Shown in pieces: positions 4,073 through 51,611 of a stretch of DNA of 64,000 nt. A model generated the notes under the pieces. It was not told the DNA's origin and searched no databases. It saw nothing but the letters and a program-made list of their open reading frames with translations. The position numbers and the translations under genes are program-made. The DNA is from Bolinopsis microptera. Lineage: Eukaryota > Ctenophora > Tentaculata > Lobata > Bolinopsidae. The stretch is from the NCBI RefSeq assembly GCF_026151205.1, contig NC_087080.1, positions 567,812 to 631,811 on the forward strand. The letters run 5' to 3'. How positions within the stretch are numbered: the first letter of the stretch is position 1; every line of letters starts with the position of its first letter.

Positions 4073-20502
<16,430 letters not shown>

Positions 20503-25655: not shown

Positions 25656-26455
25656 TAGGTTACCATGGTTACTTGGTAGGTTATTAACCTACAAGTAGAA
25701 GGCACTAGTATAGATATTAGATGGTAGTGGTAGACGTGTGGTGCGACATACCAGCCACACGCAATTAACCTTTCTTCCCCCTTCAAATAATATCTTTCTT
25801 TTAGCTGAAAATCCGGATATAAAACTGTTTAAGATAATATTAATCATTTGTAAAAATACAGAAATAAATTTGTAAAAATTTCGAAAGTTCGCTCAACTAA
25901 AAATAAATCCTAAATATTCAGCAATTTCCCCCTTGCTACGTCATCAACAAGACAGCAAATCAATATTTTAAATGTTGAAACTGAGTAAACAGATTCAATT
26001 TTATAGTGACAGTAAACTGCAGTTTACTGTAATTATAGAAAAGTTTACTACAATAAGTGTTACCATGGTTACACTTATTGTAGTAAACTGAACAGTTTAA
26101 CTTTACTTACTGTGAAGAAACGGAGCTCCCAAGCTCGAAATATCGTTTACTTTAAGACAATGACCAAGAGATATACTCAAAGATAAGAATTATACTCAAT
26201 ACTAGAAAGCTAGAAGATAAGAATTATACTAGACAATATTGAATAAAAGTGCGCAAATTATTCTAGGAAAGATTGACAAAAATTAAATATATAAGCTACA
26301 TTGATTATCCCAACATGACATATTCGATAACGCCGGATAATGCATAATTACATTTTTATAGAAAAGATTCAAAGGTATACTGGCCTTATTTAGAGAAATA
26401 AACCAAAGTCATGACAACTATAAAAGTATAAAGATCGCATTGCCATGACAACATG
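25656..26455. other. Intergenic, no gene seen
   Basis: AT-rich unique DNA between the transposon and the end of the INPP4-like gene. Contains an inverted repeat around GTTACCATGGTTAC at about 26035-26095 (AGTTTACTACAATAAGTGT against ACACTTATTGTAGTAAACT). This should include the INPP4 3' UTR. Confidence 0.45.
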
Positions 26456-26594
26456 TCACGTTTGCTGAGCTCCGTCACCGAATGTTCCAGGGGGAGGCTT
26501 GTAAATAGGAGGTAACATTTTACACTGCAGTTTATTGAAGCAGTACTTGTAGGATCCTATATTCTTAAATGTGTTGTGATATCGCGTACCGTCC
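26456..26594 (-). CDS. INPP4: INPP4 last exon, YKPPPGTFGDG...stop
   Basis: DGTRYHNTFKNIGSYKY...PPIYKPPPGTFGDGAQQT*. Matches the INPP4 C-terminus in position and pattern (YRPPEGTYG-like). Stop TGA at 26458-26456. Confidence 0.92.
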
Positions 26595-29500
26595 CTGTGA
26601 GAATACACTTCATTATACACTTATACAGCTGTGTTGTTGTTGGTCATGTGTTACCATATTTACATGTGATACTCAATGTCATATGTTACCATAGTTACAT
26701 GTGATACTCAATGTCATAATGTGTTACCATGGTTACATGTGATACTCAATGTCATGTGTTACCATAGTTACATGTGATACTCAATGTCATATTGTGTTAC
26801 CATATTTACATGTGATACTCAATGTCATATTGTGTTACCATATTTACATGTGATACTCAATGTCATATGTTACCATAGTTACATGTGATACTCAATGTCA
26901 TATTGTGTTACCATATTTACATGTGATACTCAATGTCATGTGTTACCATAGTTACATGTGATACTCAATGTCATATTGTGTTACCATGGTTACATGTGAT
27001 ACTCAATGTCATGTGTTACCATGGTTACATGTGATACTCAATGTCATGTGTTACCATAGTTACATGTGATACTCAATGTCATGTGTTACCATAGTTACAT
27101 GTGATACTCAATGTCATGTGTTACCATGGTTACATGTGATACTCAATGTCATGTGTTACCATGGTTACATGTGATACTCAATGTCATATTGTGTTACCAT
27201 GGTTATATGTGATACTCAATGTCATGTGTTACCATGGTTACATGCGATACTCAATGTCATGTGTTACCATGGTTACATGTGATACTCAATGTCATGTGTT
27301 ACCATGGTTACATGTGATACTCAATGTCATATTGTGTTACCATGGTTACATGTGATACTCAATGTCATATTGTGTTACCATGGTTACATGCGATACTCAA
27401 TGTCATATTGTGTTACCATGGTTACATGTGATACTCAATGTCATATTGTGTTACCATGGTTACATGTGATACTCAATGTCATATTGTGTTACCATGGTTA
27501 CATGCGATACTCAATGTCATATTGTGTTACCATGGTTAGATGTGATACTCAATGTCATATTGTGTTACCATAGTTACATGTGATACTCAATGTCATGTGT
27601 TACCATAGTTACATGTGATACTCAATGTTATATTGTGTTACCATGGTTACGTGACGTGATACTCAATGTCATATTGTGTTACCATGGTTACATGACGTGA
27701 TACTAACCTTCTGAATTGCTCCAACACAGGGGGGATATCTTCCTTGTGGAAGTCGTGCTGTTGGCACAGTATGTTGCAATACTCGTATGTTATACTCATA
27801 CTAGTCCGGTCTTTAGCACTCTTGCACGATGTGAACCGCACACATCCTATATCCCGCCCTATCTGGTCATATTATCACGTTTAAAATCGGATGTTAACAA
27901 ATGTAAAAGAATAAAAATAAGAATAAAACAAGCTTAATATAATATAAATGTTTAAAATGAGTGCAGAAGTTTGTGTTACCATGTGTTACCATGTGTTACC
28001 ATGTGTTACCATGTGTTACCATGTGTTACCATGTGTTACCATAGTTACATGTGAAGTTTGTTACCTGCTCTGCGAGGACGATGAAGTCGGAGCACTTTCC
28101 CCGCTTAGTAGCTTTGAAAAGATACTTCAGTTTCTCAACATTACTCGTCAGACCATTCTCAACCTGACAAATTAGTCTTCACAGAGGAAACCAATAATTC
28201 ACTTTGATAAAATATTGGTAAATGCAAAACTACAAATGTCACATACGTTGTAAAATGAGTTTTAAAAGCTACCTTAAAATCAAATACACAGATGTTGGGA
28301 GTGATGTGTTTATCAATGTAAAACTGTAAGTCCTCCAGAAACTGTTCGCATATCTTGTCTTGCTGTCCTGTCTCGTTAATTCTGCAAAGTTGTCAGGGTT
28401 TAAAGATCTGCCCCCTTAAAGGGGAGTCACTGCAGCGTGTCTGCCCCCTTAAAGGGGAGTCACTGCAGCTTGTCTGCCCCCTTAAAGGGGAGTCACTGCA
28501 GCTTGTCTGCCCCCTTAAAGGGGAGTCACTGCAGCGTGTCTGCCCCCCTTAAAGGGGAGTCACTGCAGCGTGTCTGCCCCCCTTAAAGGGGAGTCACTGC
28601 AGCGTGTCTGCCCCCTTAAATGGGAGTCGCTGCAGCGTGTCTGCCCCCTTAAAGGGGAGTCACTGCAGCGTGTCTGCCCCCTTAAAAGGGAGTCACTGCA
28701 GCGTGTCTGCCCCTTAAAAGGGGAGTCACTGCAGCGTGTCTGCCCCCTTAAAGGGGAGTCACTGCAGCGTGTCTGCCCCCTTAAAGGGGAGTCACTGCAG
28801 CGTGTCTGCCCCCTTAAAGGGGAGTCACTGCAGCGTGTCTGCCCCTTAACGGGGAGTCACTGCAGCGTGTCTGCCCCCTTAAAGGGGCTTCACTGCAGCG
28901 TGTCTGCCCCTTTAAAGGGGCGTCACTGCAGCGTGTCTGCCCCATTAAAGGGGAGTCACTGCAGCGTGTCTGCCCCCTTAAAGGGGAGTCACTGCAGCGT
29001 GTCTGCCCCCTTAAAGAGGAGTCACTGCAGCTTGTCTGCCCCCTTAAAGGGGAGTCACTGCAGCGTGTCTGCCCCTTTAAAGGGGCGTCACTGCAGCGTG
29101 TCTGCCCATTAAAGGGGAGTCACTGCAGCGTGTCTGCCCCTTTAAAGGGGAGTCACTGCAGCGTGTCTGCCCCTTTAAAAAAACGTAAAAGATATACAAA
29201 AACCGTAAAAGATATACAACTTGACTTTTTTGACTGGTTCAAATGCTTTAATGGCCTTCAAATCAGCATGAAAAAATAAAAAATTGGCCAATGAATAAGA
29301 ATATTAGTGCCCAAAATTTGGACCCCCAAGTGGTGTCAAAAATGCGAAACTAATTATTTTAGTCTCTCGAGTCTTGACACCACTTTAGGGTTAGACGGGT
29401 TCCTGTTAGTGATTATAAACAACTAGCAGAGCCTTTTTTACAAGATATTAAACTAATTTCTTTAAAAACTAACTTGTAGGCGATGGTTTGTTGCTCGTTA

Positions 29501-32500
29501 ATTCCATGGTTAAAGAAGAGGGGGAAGAAAGTGATAGAGCCTCCTTGCTGTACGGAGGCTGGTAATTGTTCCAGTACCGCGCTGGGAACTGATATGGTGA
29601 CTACCACAGCGAACTGTGTACCCGTTATACTAGACACGCTCACTTGATCTGAATCTGTACTTCTTTCTAGCTGAGGGAGAAATAAATCATTTCATTTCTG
29701 GTAAAGTTATGTGAAATAAAATTATAAAAAGTTACCTGTATTATACTTGAGCTGTAATATTTTATCTAGTGTTACCATCAACCATGGTTACCTGGACTAT
29801 ATTATGTTATCTAGTGTTACCATGGTTACCTGAACTGTAATATCTTATCTAGTGTTGCCATGGTTACCTGGACTGTAATATCTTATCTAGTGTTGCCATG
29901 GTTACCTGAACTGTAATATCTTATCTAGTGTTGCCATGGTTAATTGTATAATTTAACTGTAATATCTTATCTAGTGTTTAGTGTTACCATGGTTACCTGA
30001 CCTGTAATATCGTATCTAGTGTTACCATGGTTAACTGTATACTTGAACTGTAATATCTTATCTAGTGTTTAGTGTTACCATATTTACCTGGACTGTAATA
30101 TCTTATCTAGTGTTGCCATGGTTAACTGTATAATTTAACTGTAATATCTTATCTAGTGTTACCATGGTTACCTGGACTGTAATATCTTATCTAGTGTTGC
30201 CATGGTTACCTGAACTGTAATATCTTATCTAGTGTTGCCATGGTTACCTGAACTGTAATATCTTATCTAGTGTTGCCATGGTTAACTGTATAATTTAACT
30301 GTAATATCTTATCTAGTGTTTCGTGTTACCATGGTTACCTGGACTGTAATATCTTATCTAGTGTTGCCATGGTTACCTGAACTGTAATATCTTATCTAGT
30401 GTTGCCATGGTTAATTGTATAATTTAACTGTAATATCTTATCTAGTGTTTAGTGTTACCATGGTTACCTGGACTGTAATATCTTATCTAGTGTTACCATG
30501 GTTACCTGAACTGTAATATCTTATCTAGTGTTGCCATGGTTACCTGAACTGTAATATCTTATCTAGTGTTACCATGGTTACCTGGACTGTAATATCTTAT
30601 CTAGTGTTGCCATGGTTACCTGAACTGTAATATCTTATCTAGTGTTGCCATGGTTAATTGTATAATTTAACTGTAATATCTTATCTAGTGTTTAGTGTTA
30701 CCATGGTTACCTGACCTGTAATATCGTATCTAGTGTTACCATGGTTAACTGTATACTTGAACTGTAATATCTTATCTAGTGTTTAGTGTTACCATATTTA
30801 CCTGGACTGTAATATCTTATCTAGTGTTGCCATGGTTAACTGTATAATTTAACTGTAATATCTTATCTAGTGTTACCATGGTTACCTGGACTGTAATATC
30901 TTATCTAGTGTTGCCATGGTTACCTGAACTGTAATATCTTATCTAGTGTTGCCATGGTTACCTGAACTGTAATATCTTATCTAGTGTTGCCATGGTTAAC
31001 TGTATAATTTAACTGTAATATCTTATCTAGTGTTTCGTGTTACCATGGTTACCTGGACTGTATTATCTTATCTAGTGTTGCCATGGTTACCTGAACTGTA
31101 ATATCTTATCTAGTGTTGCCATGGTTAATTGTATAATTTAACTGTAATATCTTATCTAGTGTTTAGTGTTACCATGGTTACCTGGACTGTAATATCTTAT
31201 CTAGTGTTACCATGGTTACCTGAACTGTAATATCTTATCTAGTGTTGCCATGGTTACCTGAACTGTAATATCTTATCTAGTGTTTCGTGTTACCATGGTT
31301 ACCTGGACTGTAATATCTTATCTAGTGTTGCCATGGTTACCTGAACTGTAATATCTTATCTAGTGTTGCCATGGTTAATTGTATAATTTAACTGTAATAT
31401 CTTATCTAGTGTTTAGTGTTACCATGGTTACCTGGACTGTAATATCTTATCTAGTGTTACCATGGTTACCTGAACTGTAATATCTTATCTAGTGTTGCCA
31501 TGGTTACCTGGACTGTAATATCTTATCTAGTGTTGCCATGGTTACCTGAACTGTAATATCTTATCTAGTGTTGCCATGGTTAATTGTATAATTTAACTGT
31601 AATATCTTATCTAGTGTTTAGTGTTACCATGGTTACCTGACCTGTAATATCGTATCTAGTGTTACCATGGTTAACTGTATACTTGAACTGTAATATCTTA
31701 TCTAGTGTTTAGTGTTACCATATTTACCTGGACTGTAATATCTTATCTAGTGTTGCCATGGTTAACTGTATAATTTAACTGTAATATCTTATCTAGTGTT
31801 ACCATGGTTACCTGGACTGTAATATCTTATCTAGTGTTGCCATGGTTACCTGAACTGTAATATCTTATCTAGTGTTGCCATGGTTACCTGAACTGTAATA
31901 TCTTATCTAGTGTTGCCATGGTTAACTGTATAATTTAACTGTAATATCTTATCTAGTGTTTCGTGTTACCATGGTTACCTGGACTGTAATATCTTATCTA
32001 GTGTTGCCATGGTTACCTGAACTGTAATATCTTATCTAGTGTTGCCATGGTTAATTGTATAATTTAACTGTAATATCTTATCTAGTGTTTAGTGTTACCA
32101 TATTTACCTGGACTGTAATATCTTATCTAGTGTTGCCATGGTTAACTGTATAATTTAACTGTAATATCTTATCTAGTGTTACCATGGTTACCTGGACTGT
32201 AATATCTTATCTAGTGTTGCCATGGTTACCTGAACTGTAATATCTTATCTAGTGTTGCCATGGTTACCTGAACTGTAATATCTTATCTAGTGTTGCCATG
32301 GTTACCTGAACTGTAATATCGTATCTAGTGTTGCCATGGTTACCTGAACTGTAATATCTTATCTAGTGTTACCATGGTTAACTGTATAATTTAACTGTAA
32401 TATCGTATCTAGTGTTTAGTGTTGCCATGGTTAACTGTATAATTGAACTGTAATATCTTATCTAGTGTTACCATGGTTACCTGAACTGTAATATCTTATC

Positions 32501-35500
32501 TAGTGTTACCATGGTTACCTGAACTGTAATATCTTATCTAGTGTTGCCATGGTTACCTGGACTGTAATATCTTATCTAGTGTTGCCATGGTTAATTGTAT
32601 AATTTAACTGTAATATCTTATCTAGTGTTTAGTGTTACCATGGTTACCTGGACTGTAATATCTTATCTAGTGTTGCCATGGTTAACTGTATAATTTAACT
32701 GTAATATCGTATCTAGTGTTTAGTGTTGCCATGGTTAACTGTATAATTGAACTGTAATATTTTATCTAGTGTTACCATGGTTACCTGAACTGTAATATCT
32801 TATCTAGTGTTACCATGGTTACCTGAACTGTAATATCTTATCTAGTGTTGCCATGGTTACCTGGACTGTAATATCTTATCTAGTGTTGCCATGGTTAATT
32901 GTATAATTTAACTGTAATATCTTATCTAGTGTTTAGTGTTGCCATGGTTACCTGGACTGTAATATCTAATCTAGTGTTGCCATGGTTAACTGTATAATTT
33001 AACTGTAATATCTTATCTAGTGTTTAGTGTTACCATGGTTACCTGAACTGTAATATCTTATCTAGTGTTGCCATGGTTACCTGGACTGTAATATCTTATC
33101 TAGTGTTACCATGGTTACCTGGACTGTAATATCTTATCTAGTGTTGCCATGGTTAACTGTATAATTTAACTGTAATATCTTATCTAGTGTTTCGTGTTAC
33201 CATGGTTACCTGGACTGTAATATCTTATCTAGTAATGCCATGGTTACCTGGACTGTAATATCTTATCTAGTGTTGCCATGGTTACCTGGACTGTAATATC
33301 TTATCTAGTGTTGCCATGGTTAACTGTATAATTTAACTGTAATATCTTATCTAGTGTTTCGTGTTACCATGGTTACCTGGACTGTAATATCTTATCTAGT
33401 AATGCCATGGTTACCTGGACTGTAATATCTTATCTAGTAATGCCATGGTTACCTGGACTGTAATATCTTATCTAGTGTTGCCATGGTTACCTGGACTGTA
33501 ATATCTTATCTAGTGTTACCATGGTTACCTGGACTGTAATATCTTATCTAGTGTTGCCATGGTTACCTGGACTGTTATATCTTATCTAGTGTTGCCATGG
33601 TTACCTGGACTGCAATATCTTATCTAGTGTTGCCATGGTTACCTGGACTGTAATATCTTATCTAGTGTTGCCATGGTTACCTGAACTGTAATATCTTATC
33701 TAGTGTTACCATGGTTACCTGAACTTAATATCTTATCTAGTGTTTAGTGTTACCATGGTTACCTGGACTTAATATCTTATCTAGTGTTGCCATGGTTACC
33801 TGGACTGTAATATCTTATCTAGTAATGCCATGGTTACCTGGACTGTAATATTTTATCTAGTGTTGCCATGGTTACCTGGACTGTAATATCTTATCTAGTG
33901 TTGCCATGGTTAACTGTATACTTGAACTGTAATATCTTATCTAGTGTTTAGTGTTACCATGGTTACCTGACCTGTAATATCGTATCTAGTGTTGCCATGG
34001 TTAACTGTATAATTTAACTATAATATCTTATCTAGTGTTTAGGGTTACCATGGTTACCTGGACTGTAATATCTAATCTAGTGTTTAGTGTTACCATGGTT
34101 ACCTGGACTGTAATATATTTTATAGAGTGTTACCATGGTTACCTGGACTGTAATATCTTATCTAGTGTTTAGTGTTACCATGGTTACGTCCTGGACTGTA
34201 ATATCTTATCTAGTGTTACCATGGTTACCTGAACTGTAATATCATATCTAGTGTTACCATGGTTACCTGGACTGTAATATCATATCTAGTGTTACCATGG
34301 TTACCTGGACTGTAATATCAGAGATATGTTTGATTACAAACTGCATGTCTTCCAACATTCCAGACTCGTCACCGTGCGTACTGAGCAGACTTTCAAACAT
34401 AACTGGGATAACCAGGTCACTTAGCTGCAGCTGAAATATCTGAAAATAAAAACAGTTAACTACTGCGTTATCATTCAGTTATAATATCAATGCACTAGTA
34501 GTTATATAAAGTCAACAAACGAACATATTCTAAGTCTAATTACTGTACTAATTACTTACTAAGTTCCGTGTCCTAAAGCAGAGGGACACAATGAAGCCAG
34601 AAACTACAGCAGAGAGCAGCTGACTGAAACACGCTTCAAATCTGTTCAGCAAGTTTAGGAAGTGTTCCCTGTTATCCAGCTCTACCTGTTGGGAAGGTTA
34701 TTTAGTTATTTAATTATTTAGTTATTTAGTTCTTCTTTTGATTGGTCGGCGTCGACTGTAAGCCTTCCTTGCGGTGGCTTTCACAACGCGTCCCCATTCT
34801 CCAACTCCTGCTGCTAGAGAGAGAGACTCCCAAGTTATATACCATAATTATATTATACATAGATAATATATCGACAACAGACTCCGAGAGTCTTGAAGTT
34901 CTGTTACCACCGCTCCTGGTGCAACCCCTTACGGGTTAACGATGAGGAGACAGGGACTACAGGAACTTCCAGGGACTAATTATTTAGTTATTCAGTTATT
35001 TAGTAAATTTAATGATTTAGGTATTTAGTTATTTAGTTTATTTAGTTGCTTAGTTATTTAGTTGCTTAGTTATTTAGTTGATTAGTTATTTAGTTATTTA
35101 AACTAAAAAAAGTTCAGTAACACTAATATATAACGTGTTGTTGCTATTACAGGTAACCTGAGTTATGGACCACACAAGAGCCCGTTGTACGTGAACACAG
35201 TAACTCCTGCACACTTCTGATAACGTTTCTTTAGAAGTTACTTTTATATTTGCAACAATCTTCTCCAGATCTGCCGATAACGTCATCTGAAAATCGGTAA
35301 TGTGTTACCATGGTTACATGTGATGTCATGTGTTACCATGGTTCCAGATAATGTCATGTGTTACCATGGTTACATGCGATGTCATGTGTTACCATGGTTC
35401 CAGATAATGTCATGCTTTGCCATGTTACATGTGATGTCATGTGTTACCATGGTTACATGTGATTTCATGTGTTACCATGGTTACATGTGATTTCATGTGT

Positions 35501-38500
35501 TACCATGGTTACATGTGATGTCATGTGTTACCATGGTTCCAGATAATGTCATGTGTTACCATGGTTACATGCGATGTCATGTGTTACCATGGTTCCAGGT
35601 AATGTCATGTTTCACCATGGTTACAGATCATGTCATGTGTTACCATGGTTACATGTGATGTCATGTGTTACCATGGTTACATGTGATTTCATGTGTTACC
35701 ATGGTTACATGTGATTTCATGTGTTACCATGGTTACATGTGATGTCATGTGTTACCATGGTTACAGGTAATGTCATGTGTTACCATGGTTACAGATGATG
35801 TCATGTGTTACCATGGTTACATGTGATGTCATGTGTTACCATGGTTCCAGATAATGTCATGTGTTACCATGGTTACATGCGATGTCATGTGTTACCATGG
35901 TTCCAGGTAATGTCATGTTTCACCATGGTTACAGATCATGTCATGTGTTACCATGGTTACATGTGATGTCATGTGTTACCATGGTTCCAGATAATGTCAT
36001 GTGTTACCATGGTTACATGCGATGTCATGTGTTACCATGGTTCCAGGTAATGTCATGTTTCACCATGGTTACAGATCATGTCATATGTTACCATGGTTAC
36101 ATGTGATGTCATGTGTTACCATGGTTACATGTGATTTCATGTGTTACCATGGTTACATGTGATGTCATGTGTTACCGTGGTTACATGTGATGTCATGTGT
36201 TACCATGGTTACATGTGATGTCATGTGTTACCATGGTTACATGTGATGTCATGTGTTACCATGGTTACAGGTCATGTCATGTTTCACAATGGATACAGGT
36301 AATGTCACATGTTTCAGCAAGCTAAGGTTTGTTATTTTCACGTAAAGTACGGAGATTAGCTCACAATTTCCAGCTGTTTATCCGAGTCTAAAGTTCGCTG
36401 TAATCCCTCAAGTGCTGTTCTCGTTACTTTTTCTTTAGATAACAATATCAGATCACTTACCTGCAAAGTGCAAACGTATGTTACCATGGTTACAGATGTT
36501 TATTCTTATTTTTTTATAATTTTCTTATTAACACTTAATTTCACCCGTATTGCTCCTGAAGTAGAGACTAGAAGTGGAATGATGGACAACTCCACAAGTA
36601 TCTAACTAACTTACAATATCTTTGACAAGTAGTTTGTCGGAGTCAACACTAGCTTCAATAGCGTCATCTGATAAAGTGTGCGAGTTCATCAGGGCCTCTA
36701 CTTTCTTTAAAACACGGTACTTTTCCCTCCTTTCGGAGAACTTATCACCATCTGAAATCACACAAAATAATCTTCAATATATATTATTTAAGATATCAGT
36801 TACCACATTGCAGTGTAGCGTTATCGGTTATTTAAATACCCATAAAATACTCACCTTTACTGTGTTACTATGGTTACAATGTCAAGCGTAACCATGGTTA
36901 CTCACCTTTACTTTTACCTAGTAGAAACAAAGACTTACCTTTACTGTGTTACTATGGTTACAATGTCAAGCGTAACCATGGTTACTCACCTTTACTTTAA
37001 CCTAGTAGAAACAAAGACTTACCTTTACTGTGTTACTGTGGTTACAATGTCAAGCGTAACCATGGTTACTTACCTTTACTTTCACCTAGTAGAGATAAAG
37101 ACTTACCTTTACTGTGTTACTATGGTTACAATGTCAAGCGTAACCATGGTTACTCACCTTTACTTTTACCCAGTAGAAATAAAGACTTACCTTTACTGTG
37201 TTACTATGGTTACAATGTCAAGCGTAACCATGGTTACTCACCTTTACTTTTACCCAGTAGAGATAAAGACTTACCTTTACTGTGTTACTATGGTTACAAT
37301 GTCAAGCGTAACCATGATTACTCACCTTTACTTCTACCTAGTAGAGATAAAGACTTACCTTTACTGTGTTACTACGGTTACAATGTCAAGCGTAACCATG
37401 GTTACTCACCTTTACTTTTACCTAGTAGAAATAAAGACTTACCTTTACTGTGTTACTACGGTTACAATGTCAAGCGTAACCATGATTACTCACCTTTACT
37501 TTTACCTAGTAGAGATAAAGACTTACCTTTACCGTGTTACTATGGTTACAATGTCAAGCGTAACCATGGTTACTCACCTTTACTTTTACCCAGTAAAGAT
37601 AAAAGACCCCCGTTCTTGAACTTGTCCCAATGTCCGCACCACGCCCCCACAGTGAGAAGACAATAGTGATCTCTGCTACCTGAAAAAAATAAAGTTTTAT
37701 ACGATAGTATCACTTCAACATTTTATACGGGATCGCTTAGACATTATACGTTATTAAGTCTAGGGAAGGGGCTTTTTTCTACACAATAGCTGTGTTTAAA
37801 ATTTGTTACGGAGGGATAGGGGGAGCTAAAGGGGGAGCTGAAGGAGGAGCTGAAGGGGGAGGTGAAGGGGGAGCTGAAGGGGGAGATGAAGGGGGAGCTG
37901 AAGGGGGAGCTGAAGGGGGAGCTGAAGGGGGAGCTGAAGGGGGAGCTGAAGGGGGAGCTGAAGGGGGAGCTGAAGAGGGAGCTGAAGGGGGAGCTGAAGG
38001 GGGAGCTGAAGGGGGAGCTGAAGGGGGAGCTGAAGGGGGAGCTGAAGAGGGAGCTGAAGGGGGAGCTGAAGGGGGAGCTGAAGGGGGAGCTGAAGGGGGA
38101 GCTGAAGGGGGAGCTGAAGGGGGAGCTGAAGAGGGAGCTGAAGGGGGAGCTGAAGGGGGAGCTGAAGGGGGAGCTGAAGGGGGAGCTGAAGGGGGAGCTG
38201 AAGGGGGAGCTGAAGGGGGAGCTGAAGGGGGAGCTGAAGGGGGAGCTGAAGAGGGAGCTGAAGGGGGAGCTGAAGAGGGAGCTGAAGAGGGAGCTGAAGG
38301 GGGAGCTGAAGGGGGAGCTGAAGGGGGAGCTGAAGGGGGAGCTGAAGAGGGAGCTGAAGGGGGAGCTGAAGGGGGAGCTGAAGAGGGAGCTGAAGGGGGA
38401 GCTGAAGGGGGAGCTGAAGGGGAAGCTGAAGGGGGAGCTGAAGGGGGAGCTGAAGGGGGAGCTGAAGGGGGAGCTGATGGGGGAGCTGAAGAGGGAGCTG

Positions 38501-39879: not shown

Positions 39880-41286
39880 TTAAAATCGTGAAGACTTTGA
39901 CCTAGATGTGTCGTTGATTTTAGCCCATGAGTTATTATTGAGACTTGGTATTCCGTCCGACACGGACCAGGACGATGTTTTGAGCGGAGCAGTTCCGAAC
40001 AACTTAACATCCGTCTTCAATCTCTCTACCTTCTCGTACGAATCTGAGAATCTTCTGATAATGATTGTCATGGGAACGGTCATGAAAATCATGGAACAGA
40101 AAATGATGGCGGTAGTGAGGAAGAGTCCGACAGCGGTGACGGGGCGGATATTGCCGTAACCTATAGTTCCTATAGTGGTAATAGCCCACCAGCAGGACTC
40201 CAGGATTGAGTAGAACCTGGCGCTGTTAGCTCTCTCCTCCACGTAGAACATTATAGAACCTGAAATAAGAGTGCCAGTAGCCCACACCAGCAGCAACAAC
40301 GACAGCTCCTCCTTACACTCCCGTAGGATCTGGAATATGAGTATGAGTTTCTTGGAGCGTCTGATGAGCTTCAAGCACCGGGCCACTCTGGCCATCCTGA
40401 ACAGTTTCAGGATGTTCAGTAGGTCTCCCCTGAGATCCAGGTACCTCTCGAATATCTCCACGTAAAGGGGGATTATAGCGATTATATCCAACCAGGGCAT
40501 CATCTCCAGGAAGAAGCGGTACTTGTTCTTACAAAACACCAACCTGCCCCCCAGATCCACTGTGAAGAATACGGCGCAGAAGATAGTGGTAACCCAGAAG
40601 AAGAGGTGCAGTTCGTAGTGCTGTTCCTCGTACAACTGGATCACATCCTCCGTTTTCAGAACGAATGTTATTACTGATATAATGATGAAGAAAATGTCCA
40701 ACGCCATCCAACTCTTAGCAAACACATTAAAACCGGGGTCATTAAAGAACCTGCGTCCCTTGTCCCACACAGTGAGTACCGGCTCCTCCTCACTCTCCTC
40801 AGTTCTCTTGATGGACCTGTGTCCGATCTTGTAGAAATCTAACTCTATCTCCAACAGCTGGCAGGGAATGTCGTCGGGAAACTCCATGTAACCGTCGCTT
40901 GTCTGGTAGAACTGCATGATGTGCTCGAACACGTACCTGTTCCTGTCGAAGAAGAACATGCCTAAAGCGGGGAGGTAATACTCTGCCATTTTATCAGGGT
41001 CAGCTAGCAAAGAGTCCGGGTACCTCTTAACCTGGTCCAGAGTGAGTTCAAACACTCTGCCGGACACGCAGATCTTCAAGCAGCCGTTAGAGGACAGGGG
41101 AGAGGGCACACTGAGGGGCTGTAACCCTGGATACAGGAAGTTGTAGTCCCGGTTACCATGGTTACCTAGCATCGGGGAGTTGTCACGTGACATGTCCAGC
41201 ATCTTGTCGCTAGCACGTGACCTGCAGTGCTGCTGCTCCGTTGTCATGGTAGCGATTATCGTGGTGCTCATGTTATTACTCGCCAT
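39880..41286 (-). CDS. Voltage-gated K+ channel, Shaker-superfamily type, intronless
   Basis: 468 residues from the ATG at 41286 (A at -3, G at +4); an in-frame ATG at 41328 or 41484 would add 14 or 66 residues, and I doubt the latter. Order: T1 tetramerisation domain (~70-158), S1 189-211, S2 225-246, S3 260-279, S4 288-313 with K/R every third residue (LKLFRMARVARCLKLIRR), S5, pore helix SCWWAITTIGTIGYGN, S6. Odd points: the filter is TIGYGN rather than TVGYGD, and the S6 PVP hinge is replaced by TVP. T1 lacks the HxxxC...CC zinc site, as in Shaker/Kv1. It probably gates K+ in the plasma membrane as a tetramer. Subfamily unsure. Confidence 0.95.
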   Translation of the reverse strand: MASNNMSTTIIATMTTEQQHCRSRASDKMLDMSRDNSPMLGNHGNRDYNFLYPGLQPLSVPSPLSSNGCLKICVSGRVFELTLDQVKRYPDSLLADPDKMAEYYLPALGMFFFDRNRYVFEHIMQFYQTSDGYMEFPDDIPCQLLEIELDFYKIGHRSIKRTEESEEEPVLTVWDKGRRFFNDPGFNVFAKSWMALDIFFIIISVITFVLKTEDVIQLYEEQHYELHLFFWVTTIFCAVFFTVDLGGRLVFCKNKYRFFLEMMPWLDIIAIIPLYVEIFERYLDLRGDLLNILKLFRMARVARCLKLIRRSKKLILIFQILRECKEELSLLLLVWATGTLISGSIMFYVEERANSARFYSILESCWWAITTIGTIGYGNIRPVTAVGLFLTTAIIFCSMIFMTVPMTIIIRRFSDSYEKVERLKTDVKLFGTAPLKTSSWSVSDGIPSLNNNSWAKINDTSRSKSSRF

Positions 41287-43549
41287 ATTGCCTGACTTTC
41301 TTCTTACTGCAACGGATAACGCTTTCATAGTGTACAAGAAACAAAAAACTGCATAAAATAGCATAATGTATTCAAAATACGAACCAGTATCTGATATGTC
41401 AGAAAACAGCACTGCTGAGTACAGGAAACAATTTAAATTACAGTAACTCCAGGGGGAACATGTTGTCATGACATCACATATCACACGTTGTCATGACATC
41501 ACACAAAATGCAGTACTAACAAACATGAAGCTAATGAGAGTAACTCGCGGCAGAGCCCTCGATACAAATAATATTACTATGGTTACTGTGGTTACTATGG
41601 TTACAAATACGAATAAAGCAAACGGTAAAGGAAAATACCAAACAACTAGTATAGGGGGAGTAATAATATGAAAATATTTAAGTGTGAAATCGCTTAACTA
41701 CCTATGAAGTATCCATTGAAACAGTCAATTAAAAGATTAAACATGACCCCCGGCCCCCCCGCCCCATAATTCCCAACCTCGTTCTTATTTTCGCACGGTA
41801 TTTTACGCCTTTTTAAAAACTATTCATTTCTCAATAAGTAACACGGACAAAATACGTTTCAATCTATTACATTGGTTGGTTCTTGCAAACATGTTATTAT
41901 TTTTCTTCCTAATAGTAAGGGACAATAAGCATAAATATAAAACCCCTGGGAACTAATTTGCCACCAGCATTTTCGGACAGGAATGTGTTATCCATAAGCA
42001 GGGAGGTTACCATAGTTACTATTGTCCCAGGCACTAACCCAAATACTCGCAATTCTCATATCATGGCTGGCAGATGATGATTTGAAAGTGCTAATATTTT
42101 TAGAGTTGTGGTCGATGCAATAATTATAAAGGCGAAAGTGCCATTTTTGCGGGAAAATGCGTAAGTCTTTCGACGACGACTAGAAAAAGAATTATTTTAG
42201 GGCATATGTTGGGTGTTGTTCTTCATAAGTTGTATATAAATATGGCCTCTGCGAACATTTCGCACTTATTTGGAAGTCTCTGTGGAGCAGGGAGGTTACC
42301 ATAGTTATTATTTGTAAGCAGGGAGGTTACCATAGTTACTATTTGTAAGCAGGGAGGTTACCATAGTTACTATTTATAAGCAGGGAGGTTACCATAGTTA
42401 CTATTTGTAAGCAGGGAGGTTACCATAGTTACTATTTGTAAGCAGGGAGGTTACCATAGTTACTATTTGTAAGCAGGGAGGTTAACATAGTTACTTTTTG
42501 CTCTATATAGATTTCAGCATACTCATTGAGTATCTTGCGTTACTCGATACAGTTGTTACTAATACTCAATAACCTTACTATATTAAGACAACATACTATT
42601 ATGGTAAGGTTCTTATGGGTATTCTGAAATTGTGTTAATCAAATTACAGCTATCAAGATTCAGATTAAATATTTTACGACGAATTTTATTCCAAACAAAA
42701 TATATAACCGTAAAATAGTTTAATGCGTTAATGAAACCGGAGAAAATATGAACGAGTTCCAGGAAATCCCAGTATAGACAGGTTACTGTGGTTACTATGG
42801 TTACTGTGGTTACTATGGTTACTACAGTATATAGATGTTAACACTATAATGAAATGTAACTATGTTAAAAGGACCGGGCGCTTGCCAGCGCTGTTAAGGG
42901 TAATGTCCTAGAATTGCTTTAATACTATCTTACTATGGCCACACAAGGTCTGAACGTTATCAAATTGCTTGTTCACACGGACAATAGAGAGACAAATGTA
43001 AATCAGTAACTTGTTCTGATAATACAAGATACGACAATACAAAGCAGCAAATAAGTAACTAATAATACTATATATATAATACGCTAAAACTAACTGTATA
43101 AAGCAAGCGCCAGCTAGTTACAGGGAAGTACATATAAAAATGAGTCTAGGAAAATATTTTGAAACGTACTGTGAAGAATTGCTACGTTGTAAACACTAAA
43201 AAATCACGATAGACTGATACAGCAACTACGTAACAGTGTGACTCACAGGACAGCGGCCTTGCATCCTACACTTCATGTAGGATGCAGGATTACTGTAGAT
43301 AGACTTGCGTCCTACATGTAGGGTTGCATGTAGAAAGACACTACCTACCCCCAGCAGATGTGAAGATTCACAAACAAGTGGCAAATTATGTATATCGCTG
43401 AAACAGTGGCCTATTTTAGAAGTTTTGTCACACTTATAAAGTTATAACAAGTTAAAATAATATGCCTACTCAACTCAGCTGACTACTCAAGCGAAACCGA
43501 GATATCTTTTAAACAAGGCGCGCTGACAACAGACCAACCCGCTAATGTT
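41287..43549. other. Intergenic or intronic DNA, no gene seen
   Basis: Upstream of the channel gene. Holds GTTACTATGGTTAC tracts (41578-41612, 42781-42828), a poly-C stretch at about 41745-41765, and at about 43262-43290 a perfect hairpin TGCATCCTACA-cttca-TGTAGGATGCA. A promoter for the channel is expected here but I cannot point to one. Confidence 0.45.
42286..42500 (+). repeat. 31-bp repeat GCAGGGAGGTTACCATAGTT ACTATTTGTAA
   Basis: Seven copies in tandem plus a single separated copy at about 41998-42028, suggesting amplification of a dispersed unit. Confidence 0.95.
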
Positions 43550-46500
43550 GCGGGGGACAACACACCAACCTGCTAGTAGTCTGACACGTTTAGAGGGGGA
43601 CAACACACCAACCTGCTAGTAGTCTGACACGTTTAGAGGGGGACAACACACCAACCTGCTAGTAGTCTGACACGTTTAGAGGGGGACAACACACCAACCT
43701 GCTAGTAGTCTGACACGTTTAGAGGGGGACAACACACCAACCTGCTAGTAGTCTGACACGTTTAGAGGGGGACAACACACCAACCTGCTAGTAGTCTGAC
43801 ACGTTTAGAGGGGGACAACACACCAACCTGCTAGTAGTCTGACACGTTTAGAGGGGGACAACACACCAACCTGCTAGTAGTCTGACACGTTTAGAGGGGG
43901 ACAACACACCAACCTGCTAGTAGTCTGACACGTTTAGAGGGGGACAACACACCAACCTGCTAGTAGTCTGACACGTTTAGAGGGGGACAACACACCAACC
44001 TGCTAGTAGTCTGACACGTTTAGCGGGGGACAACACACCAACCTGCTAGTAGTCTGACACGTTTAGAGGGGGACAACACACCAACCTGCTAGTAGTCTGA
44101 CACGTTTAGCGGGGGACAACACATCAACCTGCTAGTAGTCTGACACGTTTAGAGGGGGACAACACACCAACCTGCTAGTAGTCTGACACGTTTAGCGGGG
44201 GACAACACACCAACCTGCTAGTAGTCTGACACGTTTAGAGGGGGACAACACACCAACCTGCTAGTAGTCTGACACGTTTAGCGGGGGACAACACACCAAC
44301 CTGCTAGTAGTCTGACACGTTTAGAGGGGGACAACACACCAACCTGCTAGTAGTCTGACACGTTTAGCGGGGGACAACACACCAACCTGCTAGTAGTCTG
44401 ACACGTTTAGAGGGGGACAACACACCAACCTGCTAGTAGTCTGACACGTTTAGAGGGGGACAACACACCAACCTGCTAGTAGTCTGACACGTTTAGAGGG
44501 GGACAACACACCAACCTGCTAGTAGTCTGACACGTTTAGAGGGGGACAACACACCAACCTGCTAGTAGTCTGACACGTTTAGAGGGGGACAACACACCAA
44601 CCTGCTAGTAGTCTGACACGTTTAGAGGGGGACAACACACCAACCTGCTAGTAGTCTGACACGTTTAGCGGGGGACAACACACCAACTGCTAGTAGTCTG
44701 ACACGTTTAGAGGGGGACAACACACCAACCTGCTAGTAGTCTGACACGTTTAGCGGGGGACAACACACCAACCTGCTAGTAGTCTGACACGTTTAGAGGG
44801 GGACAACACACCAACCTGCTAGTAGTCTGACACGTTTAGAGGGGGACAACACACCAACCTGCTAGTAGTCTGACACGTTTAGAGGGGGACAACACACCAA
44901 CCTGCTAGTAGTCTGACACGTTTAGAGGGGGACAACACACCAACCTGCTAGTAGTCTGACACGTTTAGAGGGGGACAACACACCAACCTGCTAGTAGTCT
45001 GACACGTTTAGAGGGGGACAACACACCAACCTGCTAGTAGTCTGACACGTTTAGCGGGGGACAACACACCAACCTGCTAGTAGTCTGACACGTTTAGAGG
45101 GGGACAACACACCAACCTGCTAGTAGTCTGACACGTTTAGAGGGGGACAACACACCAACCTGCTAGTAGTCTGACACGTTTAGAGGGGGACAACACACCA
45201 ACCTGCTAGTAGTCTGACACGTTTAGCGGGGGACAACACACCAACCTGCTAGTAGTCTGACACGTTTAGAGGGGGACAACACACCAACCTGCTAGTAGTC
45301 TGACACGTTTAGAGGGGGACAACACACCAACCTGCTAGTAGTCTGACACGTTTAGCGGGGGACAACACACCAACCTGCTAGTAGTCTGACACGTTTAGAG
45401 GGGGACAACACACCAACCTGCTAGTAGTCTGACACGTTTAGAGGGGGACAACACACCAACCTGCTAGTAGTCTGACACGTTTAGAGGGGGACAACACACC
45501 AACCTGCTAGTAGTCTGACACGTTTAGAGGGGGACAACACACCAACCTGCTAGTAGTCTGACACGTTTAGAGGGGGACAACACACCAACCTGCTAGTAGT
45601 CTGACACGTTTAGAGGGGGACAACACACCAACCTGCTAGTAGTCTGACACGTTTAGAGGGGGACAACACACCAACCTGCTAGTAGTCTGACACGTTTAGC
45701 GGGGGACAACACACCAACCTGCTAGTAGTCTGACACGTTTAGAGGGGGACAACACACCAACCTGCTAGTAGTCTGACACGTTTAGCGGGGGACAACACAC
45801 CAACCTGCTAGTAGTCTGACACGTTTAGAGGGGGACAACACACCAACCTGCTAGTAGTCTGACACGTTTAGCGGGGGACAACACACCAACCTGCTAGTAG
45901 TCTGACACGTTTAGAGGGGGACAACACACCAACCTGCTAGTAGTCTGACACGTTTAGAGGGGGACAACACACCAACCTGCTAGTAGTCTGACACGTTTAG
46001 AGGGGGACAACACACCAACCTGCTAGTAGTCTGACACGTTTAGAGGGGGACAACACACCAACCTGCTAGTAGTCTGACACGTTTAGAGGGGGACAACACA
46101 CCAACCTGCTGGTAGTCTGACACGTTTAGAGGGGGACAACACACCAACCTGCTAGTAGTCTGACACGTTTAGCGGGGGACAACACACCAACCTGCTAGTA
46201 GTCTGACACGTTTAGCGGGGGACAACACACCAACCTGCTAGTAGTCTGACACGTTTAGCGGGGGACAACACACCAACCTGCTAGTAGTCTGACACGTTTA
46301 GAGGGGGACAACACACCAACCTGCTGGTAGTCTGACACGTTTAGAGGGGGACAACACACCAACCTGCTAGTAGTCTGACACGTTTAGAGGGGGACAACAC
46401 ACCAACCTGCTAGTAGTCTGACACGTTTAGAGGGGGACAACACACCAACCTGCTAGTAGTCTGACACGTTTAGAGGGGGACAACACACCAACCTGCTAGT

Positions 46501-49500
46501 AGTCTGACACGTTTAGAGGGGGACAACACACCAACCTGCTAGTAGTCTGACACGTTTAGAGGGGGACAACACACCAACCTGCTAGTAGTCTGACACGTTT
46601 AGCGGGGGACAACACACCAACCTGCTAGTAGTCTGACACGTTTAGAGGGGGACAACACACCAACCTGCTAGTAGTCTGACACGTTTAGAGGGGGACAACA
46701 CACCAACCTGCTAGTAGTCTGACACGTTTAGCGGGGGACAACACACCAACCTGCTAGTAGTCTGACACGTTTAGAGGGGGACAACACACCAACCTGCTAG
46801 TAGTCTGACACGTTTAGAGGGGGACAACACACCAACCTGCTAGTAGTCTGACACGTTTAGCGGGGGACAACACACCAACCTGCTAGTAGTCTGACACGTT
46901 TAGAGGGGGACAACACACCAACCTGCTAGTAGTCTGACACGTTTAGAGGGGGACAACACACCAACCTGCTAGTAGTCTGACACGTTTAGCGGGGGACAAC
47001 ACACCAACCTGCTAGTAGTCTGACACGTTTAGAGGGGGACAACACACCAACCTGCTAGTAGTCTGACACGTTTAGAGGGGGACAACACACCAACCTGCTG
47101 GTAGTCTGACACGTTTAGAGGGGGACAACACACCAACCTGCTAGTAGTCTGACACGTTTAGAGGGGGACAACACACCAACCTGCTAGTAGTCTGACACGT
47201 TTAGAGGGGGACAACACACCAACCTGCTAGTAGTCTGACACGTTTAGAGGGGGACAACACACCAACCTGCTAGTAGTCTGACACGTTTAGAGGGGGACAA
47301 CACACCAACCTGCTAGTAGTCTGACACGTTTAGAGGGGGACAACACACCAACCTGCTAGTAGTCTGACACGTTTAGAGGGGGACAACACACCAACCTGCT
47401 AGTAGTCTGACACGTTTAGAGGGGGACAACACACCAACCTGCTAGTAGTCTGACACGTTTAGAGGGGGACAACACACCAACCTGCTAGTAGTCTGACACG
47501 TTTAGATGGGGACAACACACCAACCTGCTAGTAGTCTGACACGTTTAGAGGGGGACAACACACCAACCTGCTAGTAGTCTGACACGTTTAGATGGGGACA
47601 ACACACCAACCTGCTAGTAGTCTGACACGTTTAGATGGGGACAACACACCAACCTGCTAGTAGTCTGACACGTTTAGAGGGGGACAACACACCAACCTGC
47701 TAGTAGTCTGACACGTTTAGAGGGGGACAACACACCAACCTGCTGGTAGTCTGACACGTTTAGCGGGGGACAACACACCAACCTGCTAGTAGTCTGACAC
47801 GTTTAGCGGGGGACAACACACCAACCTGCTAGTAGTCTGACACGTTTAGAGGGGGACAACACACCAACCTGCTAGTAGTCTGACACGTTTAGAGGGGGAC
47901 AACACACCAACCTGCTAGTAGTCTGACACGTTTAGCGGGGGACAACACACCAACCTGCTAGTAGTCTGACACGTTTAGAGGGGGACAACACACCAACCTG
48001 CTAGTAGTCTGACACGTTTAGAGGGGGACAACACACCAACCTGCTGGTAGTCTGACACGTTTAGCGGGGGACAACACACCAACCTGCTAGTAGTCTGACA
48101 CGTTTAGAGGGGGACAACACACCAACCTGCTAGTAGTCTGACACGTTTAGAGGGGGACAACACACCAACCTGCTGGTAGTCTGACACGTTTAGAGGGGGA
48201 CAACACACCAACCTGCTAGTAGTCTGACACGTTTAGAGGGGGACAACACACCAACCTGCTGGTAGTCTGACACGTTTAGAGGGGGACAACACACCAACCT
48301 GCTAGTAGTCTGACACGTTTAGAGGGGGACAACACACCAACCTGCTAGTAGTCTGACACGTTTAGAGGGGGACAACACACCAACCTGCTAGTAGTCTGAC
48401 ACGTTTAGAGGGGGACAACACACCAACCTGCTGGTAGTCTGACACGTTTAGAGGGGGACAACACACCAACCTGCTGGTAGTCTGACACGTTTAGAGGGGG
48501 ACAACACACCAACCTGCTAGTAGTCTGACACGTTTAGCGGGGGACAACACACCAACCTGCTAGTAGTCTGACACGTTTAGAGGGGGACAACACACCAACC
48601 TGCTGGTAGTCTGACACGTTTAGAGGGGGACAACACACCAACCTGCTAGTAGTCTGACACGTTTAGCGGGGGACAACACACCAACCTGCTAGTAGTCTGA
48701 CACGTTTAGAGGGGGACAACACACCAACCTGCTAGTAGTCTGACACGTTTAGAGGGGGACAACACACCAACCTGCTAGTAGTCTGACACGTTTAGAGGGG
48801 GACAACACACCAACCTGCTAGTAGTCTGACACGTTTAGAGGGGGACAACACACCAACCTGCTAGTAGTCTGACACGTTTAGAGGGGGACAACACACCAAC
48901 CTGCTAGTAGTCTGACACGTTTAGAGGGGGACAACACACCAACCTGCTAGTAGTCTGACACGTTTAGAGGGGGACAACACACCAACCTGCTAGTAGTCTG
49001 ACACGTTTAGCGGGGGACAACACACCAACCTGCTAGTAGTCTGACACGTTTAGAGGGGGACAACACACCAACCTGCTAGTAGTCTGACACGTTTAGAGGG
49101 GGACAACACACCAACCTGCTAGTAGTCTGACACGTTTAGAGGGGGACAACACACCAACCTGCTAGTAGTCTGACACGTTTAGAGGGGGACAACACACCAA
49201 CCTGCTAGTAGTCTGACACGTTTAGAGGGGGACAACACACCAACCTGCTAGTAGTCTGACACGTTTAGCGGGGGACAACACACCAACCTGCTAGTAGTCT
49301 GACACGTTTAGAGGGGGACAACACACCAACCTGCTAGTAGTCTGACACGTTTAGAGGGGGACAACACACCAACCTGCTAGTAGTCTGACACGTTTAGCGG
49401 GGGACAACACACCAACCTGCTAGTAGTCTGACACGTTTAGAGGGGGACAACACACCAACCTGCTAGTAGTCTGACACGTTTAGAGGGGGACAACACACCA

Positions 49501-50107
49501 ACCTGCTAGTAGTCTGACACGTTTAGAGGGGGACAACACACCAACCTGCTAGTAGTCTGACACGTTTAGCGGGGGACAACACACCAACCTGCTAGTAGTC
49601 TGACACGTTTAGAGGGGGACAACACACCAACCTGCTAGTAGTCTGACACGTTTAGAGGGGGACAACACACCAACCTGCTAGTAGTCTGACACGTTTAGAG
49701 GGGGACAACACACCAACCTGCTAGTAGTCTGACACGTTTAGCGGGGGACAACACACCAACCTGCTAGTAGTCTGACACGTTTAGAGGGGGACAACACACC
49801 AACCTGCTAGTAGTCTGACACGTTTAGAGGGGGACAACACACCAACCTGCTAGTAGTCTGACACGTTTAGAGGGGGACAACACACCAACCTGCTAGTAGT
49901 CTGACACGTTTAGAGGGGGACAACACACCAACCTGCTAGTAGTCTGACACGTTTAGAGGGGGACAACACACCAACCTGCTAGTAGTCTGACACGTTTAGA
50001 GGGGGACAACACATCAACCTGCTAGTAGTCTGACACGTTTAGAGGGGGACAACACACCAACCTGCTAGTAGTCTGACACGTTTAGCGGGGGACAACACAC
50101 CAACCTG
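43550..50107 (+). repeat. 43-bp satellite, left block, ~152 copies
   Basis: Unit: GTAGTCTGACACGTTTAG(A/C)G then GGGGACAACACACCAACCTGCTA. Almost only three variable sites: AG(A/C/T)G, CTGCT(A/G)GTAG and rare CATCAACC. Strong homogenisation and local variant patterns suggest recent block duplication. Confidence 0.98.
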
Positions 50108-50210
50108 TGTGTGCAATCAATCTTTGGAGTGTGCAATCAATCTTTCAGTGTGCAATCAATCTTTTCAGTGTGCAATCAATCTTTTCAGTGTGCAATCAAT
50201 CTTTTCGCTT
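50108..50210 (+). repeat. Five ~20-bp monomers at the 5' end of the half-LINE
   Basis: AGTGTGCAATCAATCTTTTC-type monomers of slightly varying length, possibly promoter monomers as in some L1 5' UTRs. Confidence 0.85.
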
Positions 50211-50300
50211 GTGAGTTGATATCAGTTGTCTCTTATCAGTAAATAGGTAATTGCACTGCCTTTTACTGTGCAGCTTTGCTATACACGAAGTATACACAAT

Positions 50301-51143
50301 ATGGAATTTTCGGTCAGTACACTTCACGAACTGGAGAAACAGATTGAGGACTTATCAGACTCGGTTTTAGCGAATCTTAATTGCAGGAAACTAGAGGACC
50401 TCACTCATGACTTGTTCAAGCCAAAAGGCGTTACAAAGGATGTAATAACCGAAATAGTTTTGAAGATGGGGTCTATGATATGTAAATCGAGAAATGTTTT
50501 GAGATCAGCAGCAGAGACGCTTGACCAACAGAAATCAGAACAGATAAAAACTCAGAACGAGCTCATCCAATGCAAATCTGGTAAACTAGCTTCAGTGAAG
50601 GAGACAGTGAAAACAGAAATGAAACTGTTTACAGATGTTGTGAAGAATAACAGCGTAGCTTCTGATATCTCTCCAGCTAAAATCAAAATGGCTGTGAAAT
50701 CGGCGATTACAGAAGATGATCGGTCGAAAAACTTTATCATTTTCGGGGCCCCAGAACAGCTCGAATGTGAAGAGCAAGAAATGAACGAACGGGATCTCGT
50801 GGGTGATATTTGGGGTTTTATGAAGTTCATTGGAAGGCCGACTATAACAAACATTGAGAGAGTGGGAGTAAAGAAGTCTGACAGCCCTCGATCACGGCCG
50901 ATAAAAGTTACTTTGCGAGATCCTGAAATTGTACGTGAATTTCTGAGCAGAGCAAAAGTCTTGAAATCGGTTGATGTGGCAGACTACAATTTCAACTACA
51001 ACAAACTCTACTTATCTCCAGACAGGTCGCAGGATGAGCGAATCTCTCGCCAAAAGCTCGTACAGGAAATGAAAGAGGGAATCAAGAAGGACCCGAGCAA
51101 GAAATATTACATAAAAAACAACAAAGTTTGTGTCGCTGAGTGA
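50301..51143 (+). CDS. LINE ORF1-like RNA-binding protein (coiled coil + RRM-like)
   Basis: 280 residues from ATG 50301 (an upstream in-frame ATG at 50268 would add 11). The N-terminal half is helical and charged (HELEKQIEDLSDSV; SAAETLDQQKSEQIKTQNE), fit for a coiled coil. The C-terminal half carries KNFIIFGAPE (RNP2-like strand), RPIKVTLRD (RNP1-like strand), then LYLSPDRSQDER and YYIKNNKVC, the usual order of invertebrate LINE ORF1 RRM/C-terminal domains. No CCHC knuckle. Likely binds element RNA as a chaperone. Frame intact inside a satellite, so recent or under selection. Confidence 0.8.
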   Translation: MEFSVSTLHELEKQIEDLSDSVLANLNCRKLEDLTHDLFKPKGVTKDVITEIVLKMGSMICKSRNVLRSAAETLDQQKSEQIKTQNELIQCKSGKLASVKETVKTEMKLFTDVVKNNSVASDISPAKIKMAVKSAITEDDRSKNFIIFGAPEQLECEEQEMNERDLVGDIWGFMKFIGRPTITNIERVGVKKSDSPRSRPIKVTLRDPEIVREFLSRAKVLKSVDVADYNFNYNKLYLSPDRSQDERISRQKLVQEMKEGIKKDPSKKYYIKNNKVCVAE

Positions 51144-51611
51144 CTAATTATTTGAGAAAGTCAAGCATTTGTGTATGTGTGTGACGTTAATTTCATGGAG
51201 TTAAAACTTTTTGTATAACTGAGAACAGAGGTTAGAGGAACTACTGATAAGAGTATGATTAGACTGTGTTGCGTTATCAGTTGACTTTTTGCATCACTCT
51301 TCTAGATTATACTTAATAGGGTAACTTAGTTATAGAATAGGATTTTAGTTGTTGCAAGCATTGCACTAAGGTTTTAAGTTAGGTAAGTAGGCCACGAACT
51401 GTTGAGCAAACTGGGCTGGAAGCCCAAGCAATATGCAGTTCTGGTGTTGAGGCTATTTTACAATGTTTTATAACATGTGCTTGCAACTAGATCTTGAATG
51501 TCGCGTGCCCCACGGGGATTTGATTTATTCATACAATTTATTATATATTGGTTCCAAAGCCCTTATGGGTACCAGCAAAAACTGGTTTTCAAACAAACAA
51601 AAAACAAACAA

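Follow-up and report, generated by a model that had tools for sequence, protein, structure and literature searches.

Described here is an intron that consists almost wholly of repeated copies of the edge of its own exon. The DNA in question, referred to below as the window, is the whole stretch of 64,000 nucleotides that was analysed from the ctenophore Bolinopsis microptera (NCBI RefSeq assembly GCF_026151205.1, contig NC_087080.1, positions 567,812 to 631,811 of the forward strand). The intron is the sixth, in window numbering, of a gene that appears to be INPP4-like and that lies on the minus strand, spanning roughly 37.7 to 26.4 kb of the window. Exon 6 of this gene is followed by a tandem array, here called array A, each unit of which carries a version of that exon's tail along with its splice donor. 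Quite probably this intron grew by tandem amplification straddling its own 5' exon–intron edge, with such growth being tolerated because it is the outermost donor that would be used.

The family name given to the host gene comes from its motifs: exon 10 contains CKSAKDRT, which we take to be the CX5R signature of INPP4-type phosphatases. The C-terminal part of PREX2 also matches the host gene (E 2.3e-8), while against Pfam the host protein matches no family above its cut-off and against Rfam there is no match at gathering scores. Within the genome as searched (264.65 Mb, 232 contigs) an INPP4-like paralogue is present on contig C8, as a single open frame of 710 codons (E 2.4e-8, 33% identity), along with a second, more distant paralogue candidate on contig C2 (E 0.11, 27% identity). 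The C8 paralogue, given its one open frame (L041, 160-2292), is possibly a retrocopy. An ionotropic glutamate receptor stretch from this genome has as its best match the solved receptor ML032222a (E 8e-35 to 3e-34 for the three distinct sequences of that receptor, versus 2e-22 for the next other molecule), where ML stands for Mnemiopsis leidyi, in keeping with a lobate ctenophore.

Array A and the edge of exon 6

An earlier, sequence-only reading of the window had placed the end of exon 34439-34305 at ATTACAGTCCAG/GTAACC, the slash here and below marking the exon–intron boundary, with the array directly adjoining, and both the coordinates and the exon's open frame of 45 codons agree with that placement. 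That reading's further claims, i.e., that about 100 units copy the exon's end and that about 100 decoy donors result, are correct in kind but too generous in number. Particularly, there are 109 intronic units, but within intron 6 the 15 coding bases recur with no more than one mismatch only 73 times, 38 of these being exact. Decoy donors there are many, but they number 80 as CAG/GTAA, among which 75 are CAG/GTAACC just as is the true donor. These are counts of contiguous words. Cyclic alignment of 34319-29742 instead yields 110 units, unit 1 being the exon edge itself, of which 40 are exact, 93 show a single mismatch at most, and 86 possess the GT, counts that include the exon's own copy and that disregard insertions. 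An insertion of 8 bp is common to 22 units, which have lost the donor. Tandem Repeats Finder (TRF), for comparison, describes the array as 29782-34319, with a period of 38 and 108.7 copies.

Chance resemblance between exon and array, which the sequence-only reading had named as an outcome that would tell against it, can be ruled out. The last 30 bases of exon 6 align with array A, its first unit removed, at a score of 30, versus a mean of 14.7 and a maximum of 22 for 500 shuffles (0/500 reach 30). The tails of nine other exons of the gene score no higher than 18 against array A, and the exon 6 tail, when set against five other arrays of the gene, scores no higher than 14. Of the 88 genome matches to a 251-base edge query, 79 belong to the locus itself and the other 9 (82-84%, some 50 bases long) sit together at a single site about 81 kb distant, these counts being lower bounds as the search passes over very common words. 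With that distribution, an introner or other mobile intron, which would put copies of one intron sequence at numerous sites, was rejected as a candidate. Array A contains 38 of the genome's 91 occurrences of the exact 17-mer CAGGTAACCATGGTAAC.

Array A is not singular, as array C, in intron 1, is a second such array in the same gene. Exon 1 ends with GTCTTTTATCTTTACTGGGTAAAAGTAAAG/GTGAGT, its frame fixed by the C8 paralogue as well as by the phase of exon 2, which together displaced an initially considered donor at GTAAAAGT. Its 30 terminal bases recur in array C with, in the alignment shown, one gap and one mismatch (score 48, versus 26 or less for shuffles and 14 or less for other exons). 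Eight intronic copies carry AAAG/GTGAGTAA or AAAG/GTAAGTAA, and the units possess in addition a donor-like site, AAAG/GTAAGTC. The three array C decoys that were translated encounter a stop after two codons. Array B, found in intron 10, was also considered as a third full case and was rejected: it starts inside of the exon 10 donor, consists of intron sequence only, and copies no working donor, with its unit scoring 8 against exon 10, versus a mean of 11.2 for shuffles.

Table 1. Exons, arrays and splice sites of the host gene, followed by edge-touching arrays found elsewhere in the genome
Feature	Position in window	Strand	Remarks
Exon 1 (first of gene recognised in window)	37578..37672	minus	5' edge approximate; ends GGTAAAAGTAAAG/GTGAGT
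Array C, intron 1	36845..37607	minus	84-bp unit x 9; repeats exon 1's 30 final coding bases along with the GTGAGT donor
Exon 6 of INPP4-like gene (window numbering)	34305..34439	minus	45 open codons; 135 bp
Exon 6 splice sites		minus	acceptor TTTTATTTTCAG before, donor CAG/GTAACC after
Exon 6, last 15 bases		minus	GATATTACAGTCCAG, the exonic part of the array A unit
Presumed true donor GTAACC	34299..34304	minus	outermost (5'-most) copy; role read from sequence
Array A	29757..34319	minus	110 units of about 38 bp, including exon edge; unit comprises exon tail, donor and an X-box-like core
Intron 6	29671..34304	minus	4634 bp; almost wholly array
Exon 7	29474..29670	minus	acceptor TTATTTCTCCCTCAG, outside array A
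Exon 10	27708..27862	minus	contains the phosphatase signature CKSAKDRT; located downstream of array A
Array B, intron 10	26646..27694	minus	unit resembles intron from inside donor (AGTATCAC...), not exon
Kinesin L049			53 bp x 2; exon ending in SKLTR, AAGCTTACAAG/GTAAGA
Kinesin L052			ATTGAGAG/GT at exon and three more in next 110 bases; degenerate array
Kinesin L056			49 bp x 7; at acceptor, CAG/GTATTCACCCCTGACACGCG
Kinesin L065			13 bp x 22; begins at donor, at most one coding base
Myosin L075			2.2 copies; begins at donor, at most one coding base

Origin, growth, and recurrence

The last five codons of exon 6 align without gaps with the two paralogues and with PREX2, an alignment that continues into exon 7, and array A therefore was probably derived from the exon. 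Exon first and array second, that is, makes for the simplest account. The base preceding GATATT is T in exon 6 and in only the first two of the intronic units, being elsewhere mostly A and otherwise C, while differences from the exon-side unit average 4.95 in the array's first fifth, versus 6.3-7.4 in its other fifths. The sequence-only reading had proposed tandem duplication across the exon–intron edge as the simplest origin, and the gap-free codons, the T shared with the first two units, and a two-copy parallel in a kinesin gene (L049; Table 1) all speak for that proposal.

Growth can be pictured as follows. A short tandem duplication across the edge, such as that exemplified by the kinesin, would initially have put the exon tail and its donor into the intron. 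Further duplication would then have extended the array, including by the copying of exact blocks. Though the process is deduced, the block copies themselves are observed, with exact repeats within array A of 655, 491, and 491 bp found at offsets of 1640, 714, and 926, so growth of the array is at least partly blockwise. The mechanism overall is probably an ordinary one, i.e., blind tandem duplication happening over exon edges within a minisatellite-rich genome, for which strong targeting of those edges is unnecessary as an explanation.

Recurrence was assessed using a sample chosen blindly with regard to arrays, consisting of 30 kinesin loci (PF00225) and four myosin stretches (PF00063), with 86 + 15 hidden Markov model (HMM) matches and 57 + 15 TRF arrays. 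TRF rows with periods of less than 6 were dropped, as too in the first sample were those of fewer than 2 copies, and overlapping rows were merged. Matches containing stops were kept in the denominators which, as an HMM match may end inside of an exon, are rough. The first sample contained 13 array–edge pairs within 30 bp of the end of an HMM match, 4 of which were accepted (L049, L052, L056, and L065). The excluded pairs (L054, L059, a second row in L065, L067, L069, two in L073, and two in L074) are near to rather than across an edge, or instead lie beside stop-bearing matches, with most though not all inspected letter by letter. The second sample supplied one edge-touching array (L075, 2.2 copies), leaving uncounted a 240-copy array in that same locus and an L076 array that ends in the stretch before an acceptor. 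Arrays at L010, L013, L017, and L026 were inspected as well for exon edges, with the evidence for exons there too thin for placement.

Five edge-touching arrays thus are found among 101 kinesin and myosin exon matches, three of which copy coding bases along with a splice site. Random seeding of one unit length predicts 2.4 such hits (P 0.10 for 5 or more), meaning that edge-touching arrays are about twice as frequent as is expected from blind seeding, though overall within chance. In combination with the donor-side count considered below, this indicates that edges are at most weakly favoured and are not purged.

Two further observations were made at these loci. A 1.9-kb array of 8-bp units (the 240 copies noted above; contig C3, 11064150-11066040) occupies a myosin intron and ends 13 bp before the acceptor. 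At L013 (1500-1620), what by eye is a RING-like exon (CPVCMDRF) is situated between two copies of ACAGGTAACCATGGTAAC, the second of which possibly forms its donor.

The window itself is unusually array-rich: TRF arrays with a period of at least 6 make up 53% of it, while the figure for the first kinesin and myosin sample is about 6%. The word GTNACCATGGNAAC, a core common to arrays A, B, and D that is also found singly, is present 128 times in the window, versus 0.03 expected, both over 25659-36493 and scattered elsewhere. We take it to be close to the RFX X-box palindrome, and a literature search on this core word found nothing relevant among the matches listed, as judged by titles and the starts of abstracts. 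In a guanylate-cyclase-like gene (by eye, plus strand) arrays abut both ends of an intron (16613-16908): (GACA)n begins straight after the donor, GTAAG, and an array of ATAACCTGTTT precedes the acceptor. A 10.6-kb array is found at 43552-54132 (43-bp unit, 246 copies). A 36-bp tandem repeat at 20341-20436, found within an open frame, repeats 12 residues, so arrays may also occupy coding sequence. Elsewhere in the window are a 932-codon open frame (12716-15514) that by eye is Penelope-like, with a GIY-YIG-like start and a reverse-transcriptase-like part, and a potassium-channel open frame with TIGYG (39880-41490), which presumably is of the Shaker-like family, where we take TVGYG to be usual.

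Donor choice and alternative explanations

How might a gene tolerate so many donors? Under exon definition the upstream acceptor would be paired, over the 135 bp of the exon, with whichever donor is closest, namely the outermost copy, leaving the mRNA unaltered, with mistaken use of a decoy leading instead to a premature stop. The architecture, with just 120 bp of intron upstream of exon 6 versus 4634 bp downstream, should favour that choice. Carranza et al. (2022; PMC9225289) report that, where the upstream intron is short and the downstream one long, splicing leans more heavily towards the upstream member of a pair of similarly strong donors. By analogy with the human ABCA7 array described below, use of the outermost donor, at 34305, is expected in most messages, possibly alongside some skipping of exon 7.

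From each of the 80 decoys translation would proceed for 13 codons and then stop, yielding the same peptide except for the last residue of one of them, that is, VTMVTLDMILQS followed by R or S (VTMVTLDMILQSR for 79 decoys and VTMVTLDMILQSS for the first, the stop of which arises across the junction with exon 7). Exon 10, being downstream of the array, would be lost along with its CKSAKDRT. Decoy use consequently would represent loss of function, and the possibility raised by the sequence-only reading that different donors give a ladder of isoforms, in the sense of protein diversity, is not supported.

A number of points weigh against amplification across the edge with tolerance via the outermost donor. 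The true donor, CAG/GTAACC, is the same as 75 decoys over nine bases and lacks a G at +5, so nothing within those bases favours it. Predicted folding of the RNA gives a mean unpaired probability of 0.15 for the true donor versus 0.31 over the 23 decoys found in the folded stretch, and RNA folding as a mask of decoys was rejected accordingly, the true donor being predicted to be less accessible than the mean decoy. Use of the outermost donor is itself something that we infer. TRF has another description of the array at L052, 43 bp x 2.1 and starting 11 bp past the HMM match, which makes that locus the weakest of the coding cases. Considering donors alone, 4 edge-touching arrays are found versus 1.2 expected (P 0.03), an excess over blind seeding which hints at some bias. 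Lastly, length-dependent exon skipping associated with a human array, as described below, implies that arrays such as these need not be neutral.

Alternatively, the decoys could be in use, as a regulated poison extension that removes CKSAKDRT and for which array length would tune phosphatase output. The sharing of one stop codon by all 80 decoys fits with this, as do the 9-mer of the true donor being found at 75 of them and both the 2% one-unit retention and the length-dependent exon skipping of ABCA7 (PMC5954066). Convergence on a single stop, however, is explained by the frame in which the first intronic units are read, with selection unnecessary; the 22 units without a donor became so via one amplified insertion variant, which is unlike maintenance; and exon definition predicts use of the upstream donor. 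We consider such regulation to be unlikely. A broader version, in which donor-side arrays are copy-number rheostats and amplification seeded at edges is a general means by which introns of this ctenophore lineage grow, is speculative and rather improbable. If true, then decoy number would set the productive fraction of mRNA without creating new forms of protein, since every decoy shares one stop.

Very unlikely is that the array made the exon's tail, by the repeats expanding into or converting the exon's end. A perfect match of 15 bases cannot by itself give a direction. Against this reversal, however, are the tail codons that align gap-free with both paralogues and PREX2, the exon tail at array C, which shows no gap against the C8 paralogue as far as the exon runs, and the copied tail of kinesin L049, which encodes part of SKLTR within the PF00225 match. 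SKLTR is presumably a conserved kinesin motor motif.

Very improbable, too, is an intron birth of the Rogers type, in which a duplicated exonic AGGT segment creates the intron (cf. PMC4974935), even though array units carry CAG/GT and a single open frame covers this region in both of the identified paralogues. Intron gain of this sort has the duplicate supplying both GT and AG, whereas here the acceptor, before 29670, lies along with its pyrimidine tract outside of array A, and the start of exon 7 differs from the unit. Duplication, that is, would have lengthened an existing intron rather than made one. It is less probable still that the gene model is wrong and exon 6 ends elsewhere: its end is placed from sequence and its donor, GTAACC, differs from the usual GTAAGT, but a stop is encountered 13 codons into array A and, aligned with the paralogues, the protein passes from exon 6 to exon 7 without a gap. 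Equally improbable is recursive splicing, in which the decoy junction, ...CAG/C, leaves an AG that can be re-spliced from the true donor to correct mRNA; array A units do possess juxtaposed AG/GT, before which a ratchet point would have a pyrimidine tract, and by sequence logic CAG/GTAA decoys end in the exon's CAG such that a second splice made from the outermost donor would give back the exact junction, but pyrimidine content before the array's AGs averages 0.42-0.45, versus 0.45-0.70 at nine real acceptors.

Comparison with known systems

If tandem amplification across the edge is the case, then edge-blind duplication can lengthen introns while copying coding sequence into them. The arrays together provide a natural series of splice edges in real genes, of about 2, 2.2, 4, 9, 22, and 110 copies, including the 80 decoy donors of which 75 are the same as the true donor over nine bases. 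This is a natural test of splice-site choice among many identical copies, one for which exon-definition and intron-proximity rules make opposite predictions as to which donor is used.

A general literature search for edge-spanning arrays found nothing to the point, which is weak evidence of absence as subscription journals lie largely outside of what was searched. With PMC9225289 there is in common a competition between donors of similar strength, with the upstream, exon-proximal one favoured given a long downstream intron; there, though, a major site competes with an alternative one, whereas here 80 decoys compete. With the cases of PMC4974935, which cites fission yeast examples having several 24-bp copies, there is in common the tandem duplication of an AGGT-bearing segment, supplying splice sites from exon sequence. 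Those differ in that here an existing intron is enlarged and the acceptor is independent of the array.

Closest is the variable number tandem repeat (VNTR) of intron 18 of human ABCA7 (De Roeck et al., 2018; PMC5954066), in which a 25-bp unit is repeated about 12 to 427 times. There, one-unit retention is 2 +/- 1%, as a minor, frameshifted isoform, and skipping of exon 19 increases with array length. That VNTR also is flush with its exon, the first two bases being the exon's own donor. Array A likewise adjoins its exon, its first unit contains the exon's donor, and inner units keep the GT in the right context (80 CAG/GTAA, putative donors). The ABCA7 unit, by contrast, starts at the donor GT, with copied coding bases unmentioned in the available part of that report, whereas here 15 (array A) or 30 (array C) coding bases are copied, two such arrays are found in one gene, and there is recurrence in other genes, once at an acceptor. 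The ABCA7 VNTR is thus a close precedent, with what is new here being the copied coding bases and their recurrence within one genome.

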